Below, one piece after another: positions 26,410 through 37,153 of a stretch of DNA of 55,991 bases. Position numbers and translations under genes: made by a program. Within the stretch, counting starts at the first letter, position 1, and each line of letters opens with the position of its first letter. The notes beneath the pieces were generated by a model. It had not been told where the DNA came from and did no database searches. It worked only from the letters and a program-made list of their open reading frames with translations. Origin of the DNA: Chloroflexota bacterium (GTDB lineage Bacteria > Chloroflexota > UBA11872); assembly GCA_028874315.1 (NCBI GenBank), contig JAPPKM010000109.1:1-55991 (forward strand), in the 5' to 3' direction.

Positions 26410-27669
26410 TCAGGCGGGCGCTTCAAACGCGCCGGTCTCGAGGATGGCGTCGTCGGCATCAAAGCCGAACGGGCTGGCCGAGTCGATGACCTCGCAGCTT
26501 CCGGGCAGGTCGTCGAGCACGCTTTCGCTGACCCAGAAGGTCTCCAGATCGAGCGTGTTGCGGATCCGTCCGATGCGGAGTGGTCGGTCGGTCGAGCGTG
26601 CGGCCAACTGCAGGACCGTGTCGTAGCAGGCGCGGTCGGTGGGCAGGGTCAGCGGCACTTTGGCCGCGTGCAGCGCCATGGCCGTCAGGGTGTTCATGGC
26701 CAGGGCGTCGTAATCGATGGCGTCGGCCAGCTTGCGGCTGCAGAGATCCGCCAGGCCGATCCCGACGGCGTTGCCGTGCGACTCAGGCGTCAGGCCCAGC
26801 ACGGCCAGCCAGCCGTAGTCGGGCGTGCGGTCAAGCTCGTTCAGCCGGCGCCACATGCCGACGACGTTTGGATCCATGCCCGATCCTGAGATGTTCTTTC
26901 CCATGCGGTCGATGAGCAGGCCGTCGAGCTTGTCGAGGGGCAGACGGGGCATGAGATTGTGGGCGATCTTGAGAAGCGCCTCGTCGGTCGCGTGAAAGGC
27001 CTCAGGCGCCACAACCTCGGCCCGGGCCGGCCGGTCAAAGGCGTTCTCGACCAGGGCCACGCCGCAGAGCAGGTGGCCGGAAGCCACGGTCAGAGCCGCC
27101 GCCTCAGGAATGCCCGTGGCCAGCGGGTGCGCGTGCAGCGATTCGGCGCCGCGACGATTGCCAAGCCCGATGACACTCATTTTGCAAAGACCGCTTTCGA
27201 TCGGTCCGCGGAATCCGGTGTGCGGCTTGACCCGGCCAATCACGATCACGCCGTCGGCGCCCGCGGCCTCGGCGTCCAGGTGGACGGTGATTCCCGCAGC
27301 AGTCCTGCCTAGTTCGACCGTGTTCATGGTGGCGCGAACCGGCGCGCCGACATTCTGCTCGTGGACTCCGTAGTCGGCCAGAACGGACTCCTGGCCCTCG
27401 GCTGTGCCGCCGCCGTGGCTGCCCATGGCAGGGACGACGAACGGTTGCAATCCCGCTTCGCGCAACCCTCGCGCGAGCGTTCGGACGACCTCGACGACCG
27501 GCGAGACGCCGCGCGAGCCCACGGCGATGGCCACGGCGGCGCCCGGCGGCAAGGCGGCCTGGTCGAGTTGTCGGCGCAGGCCAGTGGTCAGGTGACCTTC
27601 AAGGTCGTCCAGTTCGGCGGTGGCGAAGGCCTGCCGAACCAGGTGCATTGGGGGCGCGGGTGCAGGCAT
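26410..27669 (-). CDS. LarA-like protein (DUF2088, lactate racemase N-terminal domain family)
   Basis: A 419-residue cytoplasmic protein. The N-terminal half matches the lactate-racemase-like DUF2088 family, with VAIAVGSRGV, PAMGSHGGGTAEGQ, and GVIVIGRVKPHTGFRG followed by GLCKMSVIGLGN. The true lactate racemase LarA carries a nickel-pincer cofactor on a conserved Lys, with His ligands. Here His and Lys residues occur in the KPHTGFRG and CKMS segments, but no lar accessory genes are nearby. Many family members act on sugar acids or are uncharacterised. It is the first gene of an operon with two MFS transporters and a ROK kinase, which points to uptake and use of a hydroxy acid or sugar acid. 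Confidence 0.7.
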   Translation of the reverse strand: MPAPAPPMHLVRQAFATAELDDLEGHLTTGLRRQLDQAALPPGAAVAIAVGSRGVSPVVEVVRTLARGLREAGLQPFVVPAMGSHGGGTAEGQESVLADYGVHEQNVGAPVRATMNTVELGRTAAGITVHLDAEAAGADGVIVIGRVKPHTGFRGPIESGLCKMSVIGLGNRRGAESLHAHPLATGIPEAAALTVASGHLLCGVALVENAFDRPARAEVVAPEAFHATDEALLKIAHNLMPRLPLDKLDGLLIDRMGKNISGSGMDPNVVGMWRRLNELDRTPDYGWLAVLGLTPESHGNAVGIGLADLCSRKLADAIDYDALAMNTLTAMALHAAKVPLTLPTDRACYDTVLQLAARSTDRPLRIGRIRNTLDLETFWVSESVLDDLPGSCEVIDSASPFGFDADDAILETGAFEAPA

Positions 27670-28997: not shown

Positions 28998-29735
28998 ATG
29001 CGAATCGCAGTCGTCACTGATATTCACGGCAACCGCCACGCGATGTTCGCGGTGCTGGCCGACCTGCGGCGGGTAGGCGTGGATGAGGTGGTGTTTGGGG
29101 GCGACGCGGCGTTGTTCGGCTCAAGGCCGCGCGAGTGCTGGGAACGGGTGCTGGACCTGGGCTGGCGGCTGGTGCAGGGGAATACGGACCGCTACATCGC
29201 CACCCTTGGCCCCAGGTTCGCGGCGATTGGCAAATCCACGAACACTCCGCCCGGGCACATGCCGACGAACGTCGCCTGGGCTGCTGCGCGGCTGGGACCG
29301 GCGCTGGTCCGGGAAATGGGTGCAATGCCCCGGCAGGTGCGCATCGAGTCGCCAGCCGGCACGCTGCTGGTGGTTCACGGCTCGCCGGGGGACGACGAAA
29401 CCGGCTGGAGCCGACACGACGATGAGGAAACCGTGGCTCAAGTGATCGGTCCCACCGAAGCCGCGGCCGTCGTCAGCGGGCACACGCACACGGCCATGAT
29501 TCGCCACGCCGGCCGCGTGCTGGCCGTGAACTGCGGCGCCGTGGGGCGCTCGCACGACGGACAACCGGGCCTGGCGACCTATGCCGTGCTTGACGACGCC
29601 GGCGGCCGCTGGTCGGCTGAACTGCGACGCGTTGCGTACGACTACCGCGGCGCTTATGCCGATCTGATGGCACTGGGCGTTCCGTTGACGGATGCGTTCG
29701 CGAGCACGCTGCTGACCGGTATCGCGCCGGCCTGA
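28998..29735 (+). CDS. Metallophosphoesterase (YfcE/MJ0936-like)
   Basis: A 245-residue calcineurin-like phosphoesterase. All five metal motifs are present: DIHGN (residues 8-12), GGDAALFG, QGNTD (GNxD variant), VVHGSPGDD and SGHTHTAM. It would hydrolyse a phosphodiester or phosphomonoester using two metals; the physiological substrate is unknown. It ends 10 bases before the GT-C/ABC operon and could be its first gene. The ATG begins the first strand directly (MRIAVVTD). The ribosome site is weak. Confidence 0.88.
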   Translation: MRIAVVTDIHGNRHAMFAVLADLRRVGVDEVVFGGDAALFGSRPRECWERVLDLGWRLVQGNTDRYIATLGPRFAAIGKSTNTPPGHMPTNVAWAAARLGPALVREMGAMPRQVRIESPAGTLLVVHGSPGDDETGWSRHDDEETVAQVIGPTEAAAVVSGHTHTAMIRHAGRVLAVNCGAVGRSHDGQPGLATYAVLDDAGGRWSAELRRVAYDYRGAYADLMALGVPLTDAFASTLLTGIAPA

Positions 29736-29745
29736 GCGCCGACGG

Positions 29746-31506
29746 GTGACGCCCGGGCCGCCAGCGGCAAGCAAAGCCGCGGAGGACGTGACAGCCTCAG
29801 AGGGTCCGGGCTATCCGGCCCTGCGCTGGCGCGGGATCGGGGCGCTGGCCGTCACGTTGGCGCTGATTGTTGGGTTGGCCCTGTTTGTCGCGCTGATGCG
29901 TGAGGGGCGAACGACGCTGGGAGGAATCAGCGCTGCCTGGGCGCTCACCTTCGCTGTCACGGTTGCAGCCACCGCCGGGTGGAGCCTGGCCAGCGTGTTG
30001 CTGGTGGCGTTTGTGGCGCGGCGTCGGGTTGACGACGTGTTGGCAGGGCAGGTGCTGACCCACTGGCCGCTGCTGGCGCCGGTGACGCTGGTGGTCATGG
30101 CGTTCGTGTCCGACGCCGTGAACCATCGCCTGCTGCAGACCGATGACCTGCGCTGGCTGTGGGCGGTTCCTATCGGCGTCTGGGTCGCAGGCCAAGTCTT
30201 GTGGCTGCCCCTCAGCCTGGATGGCCTGCGGCTCTCGCCGATTCGAGTCGTGCGCGACGCCATTTCGGGTCTGGCGGGCAGCAGATTCGCGCGGCTGACG
30301 TTTGGGCTGATCTTTGTGCAGTTCGTGGCGCTGCGGCTGGGACTGGCCCTGCTGTGGCGGCCCATCGGGCTCTTCGAGCGCGGCAGTGACGTGGGGGCCT
30401 ACGAGCAGCGAGCCCGCCTGGCGCTGCAAGGCCTGCAGCCATACCTGGACTACTGGGTGGAGTACCCGCCGGTGTTCCCGTGGACCGCATCGGGGCTGAA
30501 GCTCTTGAGCGTGCCACTGGGCGGTGACGAGGCGGCATTCCAGGTGCTGTTCAGCCTGATGATGGTCGGATTCGAGGCGGGCATCCTCTGGCTGATCCAC
30601 GCCATCGCGGTGCGCGTGTGGGACGAGCCGCGCGGGCTCGTAGCGGCCGCAGCCTATGCGGCGCTCTTTTATCCGATCTACATCGCCAACCGGCATTTCG
30701 AATCGATTGCCGTCTTCTTCACGCTGCTTGGCGTACATCTGGTCATTGCGGAGCGTCGGCACACAGCGTCCCTGGCCATCGCATTGGGTGTGCTCACCAA
30801 GCTGTTTCCCGCGGCGGTGCTGCCCGCGCTGCTCGCGGGACAGTCATGGACGGCGCGGACGCGCTATCTGGGCCTCGCGGCCGCCGCGGTGATTGGCGCG
30901 CTGGCGCCGCTGGCGGTGATTGGGCGTGAGTTCTTCGTAGCCTCGATCCAGAACATGCTGCTGCGACCGGGCTGGGAAACGGTCTGGGCGCTGGCCGACG
31001 GCTACTTCGGCTTCGGGTGGATCCACCGCTACCGCCAGTCACCGGACACGGCTCTCGAGTTCAACTACACCCCGGATCTGCCCGCCGCGGCCTGGTGGGG
31101 CACGGCCGCCGCGGTTGCAGCGCTCTATACAGTGCTGGCGCTGCGGCGGTCGCCGCCGACGCCGGCGTCAGTGGTGTGGTCAACTGGCCTGGCGCTGGCG
31201 GCTTTCGCTCTGTATCTGCGGGGGTGGTCTCCACAGTTCATGGTCTGGTTGCTGCCCTTTGCGTTGCTGGCCTATCCCGGTGGGCGCGGTTTCCTGATTG
31301 CCACCGGCCTGTCAGTCCTGGCGCTGCTGGAATACCCCGCCTACTTCGTGCTCTGGTCGGAGCACCCGTGGGTGCTCTGGCTCCTGGTGGTGGCGCGGAC
31401 GCTGGCCATTCTGGCGCTGGGTGCGGTGTTTGCGCGCCGGCTCTGGCGTGGGGGCCGTTCGAGCCCCGCCGGGCCTGCCCCAGCGACGAGTTCCGCTGGT
31501 GCGTAG
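29746..31506 (+). CDS. GT-C superfamily (GT87-like) membrane glycosyltransferase 1
   Basis: A 586-residue integral membrane protein with about 12 helices. The first extracytoplasmic loop has SDVGAYEQRA then LQPYLDYWVEYPPVFPW, the signature of polyprenol-phosphate-sugar-dependent mannosyltransferase-like proteins (GT87/DUF2029), with the Asp as likely catalytic base. A later VLTKLFPAAVLPALL segment also fits the fold. Such enzymes add a sugar, often mannose, from a lipid-linked donor on the outer face of the membrane. An extra N-terminal four-helix region (about residues 30-170) precedes the core. GTG start. It overlaps the next gene by 8 bases. Confidence 0.75.
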   Translation: MTPGPPAASKAAEDVTASEGPGYPALRWRGIGALAVTLALIVGLALFVALMREGRTTLGGISAAWALTFAVTVAATAGWSLASVLLVAFVARRRVDDVLAGQVLTHWPLLAPVTLVVMAFVSDAVNHRLLQTDDLRWLWAVPIGVWVAGQVLWLPLSLDGLRLSPIRVVRDAISGLAGSRFARLTFGLIFVQFVALRLGLALLWRPIGLFERGSDVGAYEQRARLALQGLQPYLDYWVEYPPVFPWTASGLKLLSVPLGGDEAAFQVLFSLMMVGFEAGILWLIHAIAVRVWDEPRGLVAAAAYAALFYPIYIANRHFESIAVFFTLLGVHLVIAERRHTASLAIALGVLTKLFPAAVLPALLAGQSWTARTRYLGLAAAAVIGALAPLAVIGREFFVASIQNMLLRPGWETVWALADGYFGFGWIHRYRQSPDTALEFNYTPDLPAAAWWGTAAAVAALYTVLALRRSPPTPASVVWSTGLALAAFALYLRGWSPQFMVWLLPFALLAYPGGRGFLIATGLSVLALLEYPAYFVLWSEHPWVLWLLVVARTLAILALGAVFARRLWRGGRSSPAGPAPATSSAGA

Positions 31507-33253
31507 GTTGCCTGCCACCATCTCAAGCCCGCGCGCGGCGCTCGGCGTGCTGGGGTGGGTGAGTCTGGTCGGCATGGCCCTGGCCATCGCCGGCGCCTCG
31601 ATCGGCCGCGCCGACCTCACGTCGCCGAGCGGAGCGTGGGCAGCGACGGCGCTGGGTAGCCTGATCGGGGCCCTGCTTCTGTGGGTCGGAGCCTGGCGGA
31701 TCCGGCTACTGACAGGAAACCAAACCTGCTGGGTCGGAGCCGGCTTGCCGCTCCTGGCTACGCTTGACGGCTGGATCATTGCCGCCTTTCACTACCTGCA
31801 CGAGCCGACCAACCATCTGCTGACGGTCGGGCTGGTGACGCCGGAGCTGTTCGCACGGCCCTCGGTGACCGAGTGGCTGGCCGTCAAGTTCGTGGCGCTG
31901 ACGCTGCTGTGGGTGAGCTGGCCGTGGCTGGCGGCTCGCACGCCAACCACCGTGCCTCGGTCCCCAAATGCGTCGATGCCGCGGCAGGACCGGGGGGCGC
32001 ACGCGCTGCCAGGCCGCGGCCTGGTGATCGTGGCGGCCGTCGGCGTGTTGGCTTACCTGCGGCTGGCCTTGCTGGACGTGCTCGCCATTGAGGTTCCGTC
32101 GGACCTGCGCGTCAACTACATCGGCGCGCTGGCACTGCGCGACGGCCTGAATCCGTATGACAATGCGGTCGCCTTGCAGGTGGCGGGCCGAGAGGCCATT
32201 CCCTACGTGGGTACGCGTCTCTGGGCCATGGTGACCAATCCGCCAACGGCCATGCTCTACTTCGCGCCGTATACGACCATGCCACTGGCGGCCGCGCGGC
32301 TGGTTTTCCTGGCCGTGAACCACCTCGCGCTGCTGGCCACCGCGGCGCTGACCTGGCGACTGGTTCGGCCGGCAATGCCTGCGGCTGTCTGGCTGGGACT
32401 TGTGCTGGGCGTCGTGGCTCTGCTGGACCCGTTCTTGCTCGCGTTCCGGCTGGGGCAGGTCGACCTGGTCATCGGCCTGGTACTGGCGGCCGCCGCCTAT
32501 CGACTGCGTAACGGAGACGATCCCTGGGCCGGCGCCTGCATTGGGCTTGCGGCAGTTCTCAAAATAGCTCCCGGCCTTCTTGCCCTCTACCTGCTCTGGC
32601 GTGGCCGCTGGCGAGCACTCGGCGGGCTGGCAGCGACAGTCGTGGTGGTCGGCGCGCTCAGCTTCGGCCTGGCCGGTCTGGAGACCTGGCAGTACTACCT
32701 GACGGTCCGCCTGCCGGATCTGCTGGCGGGCAGCGCTCTGTTCAACAATCTCTCGCTGCCAGGGCTCCTCTTGCGCGTCTTTATGGGCCCGGAACTCGCC
32801 AGGGGCATCCTGGATCTGCAGCCGGACATCCCCCTGGCCAGGCTGCTCATTGTCATCGCGGTGCTCGCCGTGCTGGCCGTCACAGCCCGGGCGCTGGGGC
32901 GCCAGGCGCGAAGAGGACGCGCGTTCGTGCTCGAGTTCAGCCTGGCCGTCGTGGCCGCCCTCGTGGTCGGCGGGGTCACCTGGCCGCACTACCTCGCGTG
33001 GTTGCTTCCGCTCGTTGGACTGAGCGTCGCGTTCTACTGGCCGCCCGGCGCCAGTCGATGGACCGCGCTGACCAGCGGGACCGGGTTGGCCCTGGCCTCG
33101 CTGCCGTTGGACGCCTACGGCGGGCTTTTCGGGAGTATCTTCGATATATCGATGACTGCACTTTCCATTCGCAGCCTTGGGCTGCTGATGCTGTTCCTGG
33201 GCTTGTTGCTGACCGTTCGCGGCGCACGTTCGGGCGCGGATCCAACGGCGTGA
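31499..33253 (+). CDS. GT-C superfamily (GT87-like) membrane glycosyltransferase 2
   Basis: A 584-residue integral membrane protein, paralogous in design to the preceding gene. After about four N-terminal helices comes SDLRVNYIGALALRDGLNPYD, the GT87 loop with the catalytic-type Asp. Then follow TNPPTAMLYFAPY, a FRLGQVDLVIGLVLAA segment and VLKIAPGLLALYLLWRGRW. It is predicted to use a polyprenyl-phospho-sugar donor. The GTG at 31499 overlaps the upstream stop (GTGCGTAG), the arrangement expected for coupled translation. Longer in-frame extension upstream lies inside the first gene and reads as non-protein. The next gene begins at the stop codon (GTGA). Confidence 0.78.
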   Translation: MRRLPATISSPRAALGVLGWVSLVGMALAIAGASIGRADLTSPSGAWAATALGSLIGALLLWVGAWRIRLLTGNQTCWVGAGLPLLATLDGWIIAAFHYLHEPTNHLLTVGLVTPELFARPSVTEWLAVKFVALTLLWVSWPWLAARTPTTVPRSPNASMPRQDRGAHALPGRGLVIVAAVGVLAYLRLALLDVLAIEVPSDLRVNYIGALALRDGLNPYDNAVALQVAGREAIPYVGTRLWAMVTNPPTAMLYFAPYTTMPLAAARLVFLAVNHLALLATAALTWRLVRPAMPAAVWLGLVLGVVALLDPFLLAFRLGQVDLVIGLVLAAAAYRLRNGDDPWAGACIGLAAVLKIAPGLLALYLLWRGRWRALGGLAATVVVVGALSFGLAGLETWQYYLTVRLPDLLAGSALFNNLSLPGLLLRVFMGPELARGILDLQPDIPLARLLIVIAVLAVLAVTARALGRQARRGRAFVLEFSLAVVAALVVGGVTWPHYLAWLLPLVGLSVAFYWPPGASRWTALTSGTGLALASLPLDAYGGLFGSIFDISMTALSIRSLGLLMLFLGLLLTVRGARSGADPTA

Positions 33254-34095
33254 GAGACGTCGTTCGCTCTCGCGTCCTCTGGGCCAGCGTCGGGTCAATC
33301 TCGTTGGCGGTAGTCCTGCTCATCACTCTCGCGCCGGCGCGAGATTTCACGCACACGGTGTTGGGCTGGCTGCGGGTGACGCCGATTGAGATTCAGGCTG
33401 ACGCCGGTGCCACCGACGCATCAGCCCGGACGACGTCCCCAACGCCAGCGCCGACGCTGGCCGAGGTTGTGGAGCTGCTGAGCGTGGAACCCACCAGCAC
33501 TATCCAGGAGGCGACGACGGCGGACATTGGGGACCTTCCATTCGACGTCGTCGGCCTCGATCCGCCCACCGCATTCGCCAGCAAGCCCACGCACAGCGTC
33601 ACGACCTTCGGGTCGGTAACGCTGACGCTGGATACCGCCGACCTGGCTGAATTACTGGCGCCCGGGTTCCCTTCGCGACGGCTCGCGCGACGCCTGGAGC
33701 CGGATGAAGTGACCGTTGCCGGCGGCGCGCTGGTGGTGAGCACCTGGCGGGCTGAGAACGACGATGATCCGCTCACCCTCTTCCAGATCGAAGCCCCGCT
33801 GGTCAGCGGGCTGCCGCCTCGAGATCTGGAACTGCTCGCCGAGTTGCTGGCACAAGCCCTTGTGCCGCCGATTCTGAGCCAACAACTCGACGTATTGGAC
33901 CTCCCGTTGGTCAAGCTTGCGCTGGGCCTGGACGTCGACTCCGAGTCCGATTTAGCGATTCCGGCGATCACCGAGTCGCCAACCGGTGACCGGATGGTCA
34001 CCTGGACGCGCGATCGGTCTCAATTCGTCCTGACGGGGCCCCTGCCGGCGGAGGACCTTCTGCGTCTCGCCGAGACCGCGAAGGATGATCGTTGA
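33250..34095 (+). CDS. Membrane-anchored protein of unknown function in GT-C/ABC operon
   Basis: A 281-residue protein. A single N-terminal helix (VLWASVGSISLAVVLLITLA, about residues 8-27) is followed by a Ser/Thr/Pro-rich linker (TTSPTPAPT) and an extracytoplasmic domain of about 220 residues. That domain contains SVTLTLDTADLAELLAPGF and, near the end, DRMVTWTRDRSQFVLTGPLP. No enzyme motif or family is recognised. The position, with GTGA overlap upstream and TTGA overlap downstream, places it in the middle of a glycosyltransferase plus ABC exporter operon. It may be an accessory or periplasm-facing adaptor of the exporter; this is inference. The first 250 bases of its longer open frame belong to the upstream gene. 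Confidence 0.65.
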   Translation: MRDVVRSRVLWASVGSISLAVVLLITLAPARDFTHTVLGWLRVTPIEIQADAGATDASARTTSPTPAPTLAEVVELLSVEPTSTIQEATTADIGDLPFDVVGLDPPTAFASKPTHSVTTFGSVTLTLDTADLAELLAPGFPSRRLARRLEPDEVTVAGGALVVSTWRAENDDDPLTLFQIEAPLVSGLPPRDLELLAELLAQALVPPILSQQLDVLDLPLVKLALGLDVDSESDLAIPAITESPTGDRMVTWTRDRSQFVLTGPLPAEDLLRLAETAKDDR

Positions 34096-35003
34096 GCGAC
34101 CCAATAGCGATCGGCCTGGCCGGCGTCAGCAAGCGCTATGCCAGCACGCTGGCGGTTGACGACGTCACGCTATCGGTTGCCCACGGCGAGATCTTCGGTT
34201 TCCTGGGACCGAACGGGGCCGGCAAGAGCACGATCGTCAAGATGATCCTGGGCCTCACCTATCCGACGGCCGGTCAGATCGAAGTCCTGGGTCAGCCGGC
34301 CGGCAGTCTCAAGGCGCGGGTCGACGTTGGGTACCTGCCGGAGACCTTCCGATTCCACGATTGGCTGACGGCGTCCGAACTGCTGCACTTTCACGCGCGG
34401 CTGGCCCGCGTGGACGCCGACCTTCGCGCCGACCGCGTGCGCGAACTGCTGGAACTCGTGGGGCTGAAGGATCGGGCAGACGACCGGCTGTCCACGTTTT
34501 CGAAAGGGATGATGCAGCGCGTCGGCCTCGCACAGTCCCTGGTGGGCGCCCCACGACTGGTGATCCTGGACGAGCCGACGTCGGCCCTGGATCCCATCGG
34601 GCGCCGCGACGTCAGGGACCGCATCCGCGAGCTTGGCGAGCAGGGCGTCACGGTGTTCCTGAACTCCCACCTGCTCTCCGAAGTGGAACAGGTCTGCGAC
34701 CGCGTGGCCATCATCGATCATGGCGCGATCGTCGCCGAGGGCAAGCTGGACGAACTTCTAAGCGCACAGGAAATCGAGATCCGCGCCGGTGAGGGCGCCG
34801 AGGCCGCCGCCCGCCAGGCCCTTGGCGACGCCGAGGTCCGCGCACTCAACGGACGCCTGCGCGTGCGTGTTGCCAACGACGAAGAGACCGCAATCCTCGT
34901 GCAACGCATCGTCGAGGCCGGCGTATCGGTCTACGACGTTCGACAAGTCGGCGACTCGCTGGAAGATCTCTTCGTCCGCGTCGCCGAACGGGGCGACGTA
35001 TGA
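34092..35003 (+). CDS. ABC transporter ATP-binding protein
   Basis: A 303-residue ATPase with Walker A GPNGAGKST (residues 39-47), the ABC signature LSTFSKGMMQR (133-143, a Phe-Ser-Lys-Gly form seen in export-type ATPases) and Walker B LVILDEPTS (156-164), followed by NSHLLSEVEQ with the switch His. A C-terminal extension of about 80 residues follows the ATPase core, as in many ABC-2 exporters. It pairs with the permease that begins inside its last codon (ATGA overlap). The TTG start overlaps the upstream stop by 4 bases. Substrate unknown; neighbouring glycosyltransferases suggest a glycan or glycolipid. Confidence 0.95.
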   Translation: MSDPIAIGLAGVSKRYASTLAVDDVTLSVAHGEIFGFLGPNGAGKSTIVKMILGLTYPTAGQIEVLGQPAGSLKARVDVGYLPETFRFHDWLTASELLHFHARLARVDADLRADRVRELLELVGLKDRADDRLSTFSKGMMQRVGLAQSLVGAPRLVILDEPTSALDPIGRRDVRDRIRELGEQGVTVFLNSHLLSEVEQVCDRVAIIDHGAIVAEGKLDELLSAQEIEIRAGEGAEAAARQALGDAEVRALNGRLRVRVANDEETAILVQRIVEAGVSVYDVRQVGDSLEDLFVRVAERGDV

Positions 35004-35836
35004 GCGCGCACCTGATCGCATTCTTCACGCTGCGGGAAGCGCTACGGCGCCGCGTGGTACTGGCGGCGGCCCTACTGACGTTTGGCTACCTGGTGCTCTA
35101 CGGCGTCGGCGTATGGTTCGGCTACCGCGACCTGCAGAACACCCCGGGCGGCCCGCCGGGACTGACCGAAGGCGTCGTGAACCTCATGCTGGTCGGCGGC
35201 TTATGGAGCCTGAATTTCATCGCCTCGGTGCTGGCCGTCTTTCTGTCCGTCGGCGCGCTTTCCGGCGAGTTGGACCAGGGCACATTGCACGCCGTGGCCG
35301 CCCGGCCGGTCCGTCGCAGCGAAATCGTCTTAGGGAAGTTTGTTGGCTTCACGCTGATGCTCGCGGTCTTTATTGGCGTATCGGCGAGCCTGATGATCCT
35401 GATCGTGGCGGTAATCACCGGAGAGGTCGTGGGCGCCAGCTGGTCCGGTCCGTTCCTGATGCTGCTGGCCTCGATGCTGCTGATCGGACTGGCGCTGGCG
35501 GGAAGTTCGCGTCTGAGCCCGCTGCCCAACGGCGTGATTGTCTTCACGTTGTATGCGACGGCGCTGATCGGTGGTGTGATCGAACAGATCGGCGACGTGC
35601 TGGAAAGCGCCGTGATGTTCAACATCGGCGTCTTTAGCAGCGTCCTGGTTCCCACCCGCGCCATCTGGGACATGGCCAGCGCACAGCTGGCAGCCGGCGG
35701 ATTCGCCGGCGAGTTGAGCGCGGGCCCCTTCGGCGCCAGCAACCCGCCGTCCGGCTGGATGCTGCTGGTCGCGGCGCTGCACCTGGCGATTGCCCTTGGC
35801 TTCGCCGTGCGCAGCTTCGAACGTCGCGACTTCTAG
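35000..35836 (+). CDS. ABC-2 type transporter permease
   Basis: A 278-residue membrane protein with about six helices. The ABC-2 permease hallmark after the second helix is GALSGELDQGTLHAVAARPVRRSEIVLGKF, which contains the conserved Glu and the Arg-rich coupling helix. It forms the membrane part of the exporter with the preceding ATPase. It is the last gene of the operon and is followed after 45 bases by the oxidoreductase-NIL gene, which has its own candidate promoter. Confidence 0.93.
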   Translation: MSAHLIAFFTLREALRRRVVLAAALLTFGYLVLYGVGVWFGYRDLQNTPGGPPGLTEGVVNLMLVGGLWSLNFIASVLAVFLSVGALSGELDQGTLHAVAARPVRRSEIVLGKFVGFTLMLAVFIGVSASLMILIVAVITGEVVGASWSGPFLMLLASMLLIGLALAGSSRLSPLPNGVIVFTLYATALIGGVIEQIGDVLESAVMFNIGVFSSVLVPTRAIWDMASAQLAAGGFAGELSAGPFGASNPPSGWMLLVAALHLAIALGFAVRSFERRDF

Positions 35837-35881: not shown

Positions 35882-37153
35882 ATGACGACTGACCTTCGGA
35901 TTGCGCTGATCGGCTGTGGGGACCACGGCGGCACGCGCCTGGCGTCGGCCGTCTGGTCCACCGACGGCGTCGCCTTGAGCGCGTGTGTCGACGTCGACGC
36001 CGCGGCCGCTCGCAAGGCCGCGCATACCGTGGCCGAAGTCCTGACCAGCGTCGAGGCGCTGACGGCTGGCGACTATGCCGACGCGGCGGTGATCGCCGTG
36101 CCCCACGACGACCTGGCGCCCATCACGCACGCCTGTATTGAAGCCGGTCTGCACGTGCTGGTTGAGAAGCCGGCCGGGCTGAATGCGACCGAAGTGGCCG
36201 GAGTCGTCGAGGCCGCTCACACCCGCGGGCTGACCTTCATGCCCGCCTATTGCCTGCGCTTCAACGAAGTGCGCACCCGCGCGCGCGACCTGGTCCGGCG
36301 CGGCGTGGTCGGCAACATTCGCACCCTGGCGGCCGCCAAGGGCAGCCCGCCGCTCCCGGGCTGGCTGGCCGATCCCGCCCGCGGCGGGGGGCAGCTGCTG
36401 TTTCTTGGATCTCACCTGGTTGACCAGTTGCTCTGGCTACACCGTCAACCGGTCGTTCGCGCCTACGCCCACATCACGTTCCGGGACGACACGGGTAGCG
36501 ATGAGTCAATCTCCGGCGTTATCGAGTTCGCCGACGGCGTCAGCGCCACCATCAGCCTGAGCCAGGCCGCCGGCGTCGCGTATGACCATCTCGAAGTCAC
36601 CGGCGACCGGGGACGGATCAGGTCGGACTGGAAGAGCGGCCAAATCGACATTGAAAGCGCCAACGCACACGAGTACCGGCTCCCAACCGTCGAGTTCGTT
36701 CAGTCGGACCTGTTCCAGCCGATGTACGACGCCGAGATGGCGGAGTTCGCCGCCGCCGTGCGCCTGGGTCGACCGCCGAGCGTTGACGGGCACGATGCGG
36801 TCCGCACGCTGAAAGTGCTGGACGCCCTGCGGGCGTCGGCCGAACGCGGCACACCTGTAGCAGTCGACGACGCGGTGCATGGCACGACGGGACGGGTTGT
36901 CGAGCACGAACCGGCGAGGATTCGCATCCAGTTGACCTATCCATCAGACCGAATCCAGGAACCCATCCTCTACGAGCTGGCCCGACGCTTTCACCTGAAG
37001 TTCAACGTGCGCCGGGCCGACATCGATGCGGGAATCGGCTGGGTGCAACTGATGCTGGAGGGCGAGCGCTCCGAGATCGAGGCCGCCATTGAGTGGGTGG
37101 AGGCCCAGGGCATCCGCGCCGACCCGGTCGAGGGCGACGTCGTCAGCGGCTAA
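35882..37153 (+). CDS. Gfo/Idh/MocA oxidoreductase with C-terminal NIL domain
   Basis: A 423-residue fusion. Residues 1-330 form a complete Gfo/Idh/MocA enzyme: GCGDHGGTR nucleotide loop (residues 11-19), EKPAG, and GSHLVDQLLWLHR with the presumed catalytic His. Residues 346-423 read RIRIQLTYPSDRIQEPILYE, then LARRFHLKFNVRRADI, VQLMLEGERSEIEAAIEWV and QGI. That is the pattern of the NIL domain, the ferredoxin-like regulatory domain found at the C-terminus of methionine ABC ATPases (MetN) and in some ferredoxins. The linker GRVVEHEPA joins the two in frame, with no frameshift sign. In MetN the domain binds methionine and inhibits transport; here it may control the dehydrogenase allosterically or mediate dimerisation. 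Substrate unknown. Confidence 0.85.
   Translation: MTTDLRIALIGCGDHGGTRLASAVWSTDGVALSACVDVDAAAARKAAHTVAEVLTSVEALTAGDYADAAVIAVPHDDLAPITHACIEAGLHVLVEKPAGLNATEVAGVVEAAHTRGLTFMPAYCLRFNEVRTRARDLVRRGVVGNIRTLAAAKGSPPLPGWLADPARGGGQLLFLGSHLVDQLLWLHRQPVVRAYAHITFRDDTGSDESISGVIEFADGVSATISLSQAAGVAYDHLEVTGDRGRIRSDWKSGQIDIESANAHEYRLPTVEFVQSDLFQPMYDAEMAEFAAAVRLGRPPSVDGHDAVRTLKVLDALRASAERGTPVAVDDAVHGTTGRVVEHEPARIRIQLTYPSDRIQEPILYELARRFHLKFNVRRADIDAGIGWVQLMLEGERSEIEAAIEWVEAQGIRADPVEGDVVSG

Follow-up and report, generated by a model that had tools for sequence, protein, structure and literature searches.

How does a NIL domain come to stand at the end of an oxidoreductase, and what might it do there? The question is raised by one gene in the window, by which we mean the whole 55,991-nucleotide stretch of Chloroflexota DNA analysed here. 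An earlier note had described this gene as a complete Gfo/Idh/MocA-type sugar dehydrogenase joined in one clean frame to a NIL domain, and had suggested feedback on the enzyme, perhaps by a sulfur amino acid. The gene (GFO-NIL below) and its parts are:

35882..37153, + strand: GFO-NIL fusion gene (ATG start, 423 amino acids (aa), without internal stop)
35894..36247, + strand: NAD-binding Rossmann domain (GFO_IDH_MocA, residues 5–122, by Pfam; GCGDHG at residues 11–16 and Asp-37, read from the translation)
36278..36865, + strand: GFO C-terminal alpha/beta domain (residues 133–328; Pfam)
36872..36916, + strand: variable linker (residues 331–345; weakly constrained, see below)
36917..37150, + strand: NIL domain with PVEGD tail (residues 346–423; Pfam, alignment, low omega)

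Domain composition of the fusion protein

Profile searches place both halves of the protein well above the curated Pfam cut-offs. The N-terminal part matches GFO_IDH_MocA (residues 5–122, 58 bits, cut-off 24), and the segment behind it matches both GFO_IDH_MocA_C3 (residues 133–247, 78.9 bits, cut-off 27) and GFO_IDH_MocA_C (residues 136–328, 64 bits, cut-off 22.9). The tail matches NIL (PF09383) over residues 348–412 with 50.1 bits (E 2.6e-13, cut-off 24), and reaches 54.1 bits against the same cut-off when scored alone. The two families are thus joined in a single clean frame, with the EPILYELARRF and EIEAAIEWV segments in place, as the earlier note had read them. NIL domains have a ferredoxin-like fold and form dimers. 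Among PDB entries, sequence relatives of the tail were seven MetN sequences only (best E 1.6e-8). No NCBIfam equivalog matched the protein: the IolG model TIGR04380 gave 120.3 of the 355 bits required, and the MetN model TIGR02314 gave 10.8 of 499.7, with no ABC domain. The genome from which the window comes, 87% complete and in 206 contigs, has the tail of this protein as its sole NIL match.

Distribution of the fusion

The fusion protein was searched for in 61 genomes, among which family f1 comprises 13 genomes of genus g1, to which the window belongs, and six of a sister genus, g2. All 19 f1 genomes carry it, 18 at full length and one (G008) split over two contigs, the pieces of which cover residues 1–128 and 151–423. 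The 17 full-length relatives of the window copy within f1 are 51–92% identical to it and align from residue 1 or 2 through to residue 423. The open frame that holds the fusion is 431–451 aa long in 17 of the 19 genomes, longer in G013, and ended by the contig edge in G008. One of these genomes, G002, consists of just one contig of 3.0 Mb, which disfavours an assembly artefact. In each of the 19 genomes the fusion is also the only NIL domain found.

A family search of 400 sampled Chloroflexota genomes (224 genera) found NIL domains in 126. Among the 30 phylum loci listed, 10 have an ABC signature (MetN-like), 14 a ferredoxin cysteine pattern, and six neither; the only frames with room for a GFO part are those of the MetN-like genes and those of f1, the remaining listed NIL frames (77–247 aa) lying below the length needed. 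A pattern scan of an 84,980-species collection, built on the NIL alignment, returned 30 loci, of which 14 are stand-alone NIL genes and 16 are fusions, all of these at full length except L072, which runs off its contig. These fusions, all from Chloroflexota metagenome-assembled genomes, are the f1 genomes already counted and add no independent cases. The pattern scan reaches close NIL relatives only and the family search sampled Chloroflexota only, so independent GFO-NIL fusions may exist in other phyla. Of 885 plasmid records that match the query none covers at least 80% of it, none of 71 viral-contig stretches fitting the pattern is a relative of the fusion, and none of the three papers with the phrase ‘NIL domain’ in the searched library (PMC11466899 among them) combines it with ‘oxidoreductase’. 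The pairing, which the earlier note had called unfamiliar, is thus seen in f1 only among the genomes searched. The fusion is confirmed as a genuine domain architecture that, within the searched range, is confined to this family.

Selection on the two parts

Across 45 pairs of 10 g1 genes, the median omega, obtained by a simple counting method at a median dS of about 0.7, is 0.028 for the NIL part, 0.105 for the GFO part and 0.36 for the linker. The NIL tail is under stronger purifying selection than either the enzyme part or the linker. Conservation covers the core of the domain (RRAD, GW) and, besides it, the PVEG motif that follows the domain.

A neutral fusion, in which the parts work singly and a separate NIL product is perhaps made from an internal start, would suit the weakly constrained linker. 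Candidate starts do exist: of 16 aligned rows, 9 have a GTG 20 codons ahead of the NIL part, 7 have a GTG 14 codons ahead of it, and an ATG falls on the first NIL codon in 4 rows, all from g2. However, no start position before the NIL part is common to all 16 rows, which disfavours a separate product, and in-frame joining has been retained in every f1 genome down to 51% identity with the window copy. We regard such a neutral union as very improbable.

Active-site residues and a possible ligand

Four positions, two of them catalytic-type residues kept among the fused proteins, bear on what the parts could do:

36167..36169, + strand: Lys-96, in the motif EKP (the same in all 14 fused proteins aligned)
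36401..36403, + strand: Phe-174, at the canonical catalytic Asp position (alignment)
36413..36415, + strand: His-178, catalytic-type His (invariant in the same 14 proteins)
37004..37006, + strand: Asn-375, aligned with Escherichia coli MetN Asn-295 (alignment)

The Lys-Asp-His triad of inositol-dehydrogenase type, given for Bacillus subtilis IolG as Lys97/Asp172/His176 (PMC9603128), is incomplete in the fusion: the Asp is replaced by Phe-174 in 19 of 19 copies, and likewise in the unfused relatives L021, L022 and L023. This position is not strict, since eight other homologues have Asp in six cases (L024, L026, L027, L029, L030 and L031), Glu in L025, and Asn in another GFO gene that the window carries near 12.8 kb. 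Gfo/Idh/MocA matches are numerous in genus g1 (G000–G012), at least 29 or 30 per genome. With Phe-174 in place of the triad Asp, it is doubtful that the protein works as a usual dehydrogenase of sugars or inositol; judging by this residue, the substrate or the chemistry probably differs from that of inositol and sugar dehydrogenases, and loss of the Asp may even mean no oxidoreductase activity whatever. Corynebacterium glutamicum OxiC, with Ile at the triad-Asp position and an incomplete GxGxxG, is described in the same source as a protein for which inositol dehydrogenase activity was not found (PMC9603128). The GxGxxG motif is also incomplete in genus g2, where rows L077–L080 read GCGDHM. The earlier description of a complete sugar dehydrogenase therefore stands for the folds, complete by profile, and for the invariant Lys and His, but fails at the triad Asp.

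On the NIL side, the N295A substitution in E. coli MetN is reported to raise the Ki for L-Met 28-fold (PMC12357092), this Asn being required for MetN to be inhibited by methionine. The aligned position 375 is Asn in 12 of the 19 fused copies and Asp in the other seven. For a ferredoxin subunit of Methanosarcina acetivorans, one report calls the NIL domain a known methionine binder in its text, while a figure legend there has its response as ‘hypothesized’ (PMC12068725). By analogy, methionine is a possible ligand of the fused NIL domain. The proposal of a sugar dehydrogenase under methionine feedback accordingly keeps its NIL identity and its pairing, and is weakened by Phe-174 and by the Asp at the MetN-critical position in seven copies.

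The most likely reading, which we judge evenly balanced between right and wrong, is that GFO-NIL is a ligand-tuned oxidoreductase. The NIL part would pair with its twin within the GFO oligomer, as NIL domains do elsewhere, and might tune the oxidoreductase part by binding methionine or a small molecule akin to it, and the latter retains the NAD-binding fold, Lys-96 and His-178, with Phe instead of the catalytic Asp. Against this reading stand the variation at position 375, the GCGDHM motif of g2, annotated neighbours without a sulfur amino acid gene among them, and the chance that with the Asp all oxidoreductase activity is gone.

Genomic neighbourhood

The annotated genes around the fusion are glycan, membrane and export genes rather than genes of sulfur amino acid metabolism:

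26410-27669, − strand: lactate racemase N-terminal domain (LarN-like) gene (30.1 bits, cut-off 23.3)
28998..29735, + strand: metallophosphoesterase (6/6 f1 loci inspected)
31298..33253, + strand: GT87 glycosyltransferase (Pfam; start codon uncertain)
34092..35003, + strand: ABC transporter ATPase, upstream of the fusion (5/6 f1 loci inspected; f2 genomes G020 and G023)
35000..35836, + strand: ABC-2 type permease (stops 45 bp upstream of the fusion gene)

The order in f1 is LarN-like gene, metallophosphoesterase, a paired open reading frame (ORF) with GT87, ABC ATPase, ABC-2 permease and GFO-NIL. A LarN-like gene lies near the locus in 9 of 10 f1 and f2 loci inspected. GT87 is a neighbour in 4 of the 6 f1 loci inspected and in two genomes of the sister family f2 (G021, G022); within these six, the GT87 pair was not seen in G014 and G017, nor the ABC pair in G003. 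The paired ORF before GT87 has no Pfam match in the window, and its f2 counterpart scores below cut-off. As listed, this ORF and the GT87 ORF (together 29746-33253, + strand) overlap by 209 bases; the true start codon of the GT87 ORF probably lies further downstream.

This glycan and exporter setting, free of sulfur genes, is what one might expect if the NIL part were a dimerisation or docking module that binds no regulator and tethers the GFO part to the partner of the ancestral stand-alone NIL protein. The inconstancy of the MetN-critical Asn among fused copies agrees with such a role, and the PVEG motif, kept behind the domain in stand-alone and fused copies alike, would suit a partner surface. 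Against it, the core of the domain is conserved too, and where the function of a NIL domain has been tested it responds to methionine. We consider docking alone rather unlikely.

The same neighbours admit a further reading, which we find improbable: GFO-NIL could be a non-enzyme with two inputs, its Rossmann domain, lacking the catalytic Asp, reading NAD(H) and its NIL domain methionine or another sulfur compound, that tunes the adjoining exporter or surface-glycan machinery. If so, the NIL domain would be a portable metabolic sensor, moved from a sulfur-transfer cluster (see below) into the control of the cell envelope.

The unfused state in a sister family

In f2, each of the five genomes has exactly one NIL domain, encoded as a short separate gene. 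In four of the five, one of the two gene pairs known from upstream of the fusion precedes this gene, namely the ABC pair for G020 and G023 (L082) and the GT87 pair for G021 as well as G022, and in these four a polysaccharide deacetylase gene follows it. The fifth locus, G019, has only the LarN-like gene in common with f1, and a deacetylase and a sulfatase in common with f2. None of the 17 genomes of the class's other three families (f3–f5) has a NIL domain.

A tree of NIL sequences (61 rows, 77 columns), in which many deep forks are weak and the bootstrap is not settled, puts the fused copies and the truncated L072 into one 17-row clade (support 100/100), joins this clade with four f2 rows (99/92), and places both inside a 37-row clade of NILs that are neither MetN nor ferredoxin (100/100). 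The earlier note had tied the tail to the NIL domains of MetN and of ferredoxins; its nearest relatives in the tree are instead stand-alone NIL proteins. We also considered that the domain was recently taken from MetN; the tree gives this no support, the MetN NILs falling outside the clade of the fused NILs.

The closest relatives found for the GFO part are unfused proteins, at 42% identity in a single f5 genome and at 35–36% in two genomes of f2, encoded, where a NIL gene exists, on contigs other than that of the NIL gene. In a tree of GFO parts with few (18) and partly long-branched rows, two of which (L014 and L081) come from the same genome, the fused copies form one clade (99/98) that joins the unfused L021–L023 (100/99). 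Comparing loci and trees, we infer that the ancestor of f1 and f2 may have had a stand-alone NIL gene behind exporter or glycosyltransferase genes, and that in the ancestor of f1 this gene would have been fused, with the frame kept, to the 3' end of an oxidoreductase gene of GFO type.

An association with threonine-synthase-like and ThiS-like genes

Stand-alone NIL genes outside f2 keep different company. At all 10 such loci (L085–L087, L089–L095) a ThiS/MoaD-like gene adjoins, and at 7 of the 10 a gene for a threonine-synthase-like PLP enzyme is near, as judged by motif; at one locus, L086, both PALP and ThiS are confirmed by Pfam. In these other classes the stand-alone NIL protein presumably acts on the threonine-synthase-like/ThiS-like pair. 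A threonine-synthase-like protein (at least 58% identity) is also present in 17 of 19 f1 and 5 of 5 f2 genomes, with a ThiS-like gene beside it, and no NIL between, at 13 of 13 f1 and 3 of 3 f2 loci inspected. The NIL gene may thus have left such a cluster and, in f1, then have fused to the GFO gene.

The pair itself is a candidate homocysteine synthase, because DUF39 (PF01837) is missing from all 41 genomes of the class, f1 and f2 included, and a strong Cys_Met_Meta_PP match is missing in 23 of the 24 f1 and f2 genomes; an S-methyl_trans domain is found in all 24. An exclusive role of the pair in homocysteine formation is countered by the strong PF01053 matches of several other NIL-bearing families, and by another threonine-synthase homologue beside homoserine dehydrogenase (contig C2) in the window's genome. 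The sole strong Cys_Met_Meta_PP match among the 19 f1 genomes is L156 (G015:C30:23884-25026, 421.9 bits), either a recent gain or contamination.

Might GFO-NIL still act on this pair, encoded elsewhere in the genome, with the GFO part adding a redox (NAD) input? The constancy of the NIL/ThiS-like association, the presence of the pair in most f1 genomes and its candidacy for homocysteine formation lend the idea some appeal. Against it, genomes of f3–f5 have the pair at 14 loci but no NIL domain, so NIL is dispensable for the pair; two f1 genomes, G003 and G016, carry the fusion without a close threonine-synthase-like match (best 33%); and the fusion gene lies in a locus apart from the pair. We give this reading little weight. 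Two further roles were considered and rejected: NIL in the DUF39 homocysteine pathway, PF01837 being absent as stated, and GFO-NIL as a replacement homoserine dehydrogenase with feedback by methionine, Homoserine_dh (PF00742) being present in 18 of 19 f1 genomes (not in G018).

Comparison with known systems

The locus offers a traceable capture of a regulatory-type domain by a new kind of protein, and the unfused state survives beside the same genes in f2, which permits a direct before/after comparison. If the NIL part binds methionine, the Gfo/Idh/MocA superfamily, in which NIL-type allostery is not known, would gain it. The comparison also points to the threonine-synthase-like/NIL/ThiS-like cluster as a candidate for homocysteine formation in bacteria whose genomes gave no match to the usual enzymes.

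Among known systems, the C2/NIL domain of MetN in methionine ABC importers belongs to the same family (PF09383) and likewise lies C-terminal to a nucleotide-binding domain. There, however, the partner is an ABC ATPase, and the NILs of MetN, which group in a clade of their own (100/100), have four more residues in one loop than the fused NIL. The NIL-ferredoxins of the DUF39 homocysteine pathway, such as MA1822 and DvMF_0262 as presented in PMC5764234, also combine NIL with a redox protein, but one that is a ferredoxin rather than a Rossmann oxidoreductase. In Chloroflexota NIL-ferredoxins the NIL domain comes first, whereas in the fusion it is C-terminal, and these NILs fall outside the fused NILs' clade. 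The stand-alone NIL proteins of Chloroflexota and Dormibacterota share a clade with the fusion and with f2, most of them with the NIRRA...GW...PVEG pattern; those beside ThiS-like and threonine-synthase-like genes differ from the fusion in being unfused and in standing at another locus. IolG-type Gfo/Idh/MocA oxidoreductases, finally, have both domains and the active-site Lys and His in common with the fusion, which is set apart from IolG and its kin by Phe at the catalytic Asp, by its score far below the TIGR04380 requirement, and by the C-terminal NIL domain itself.
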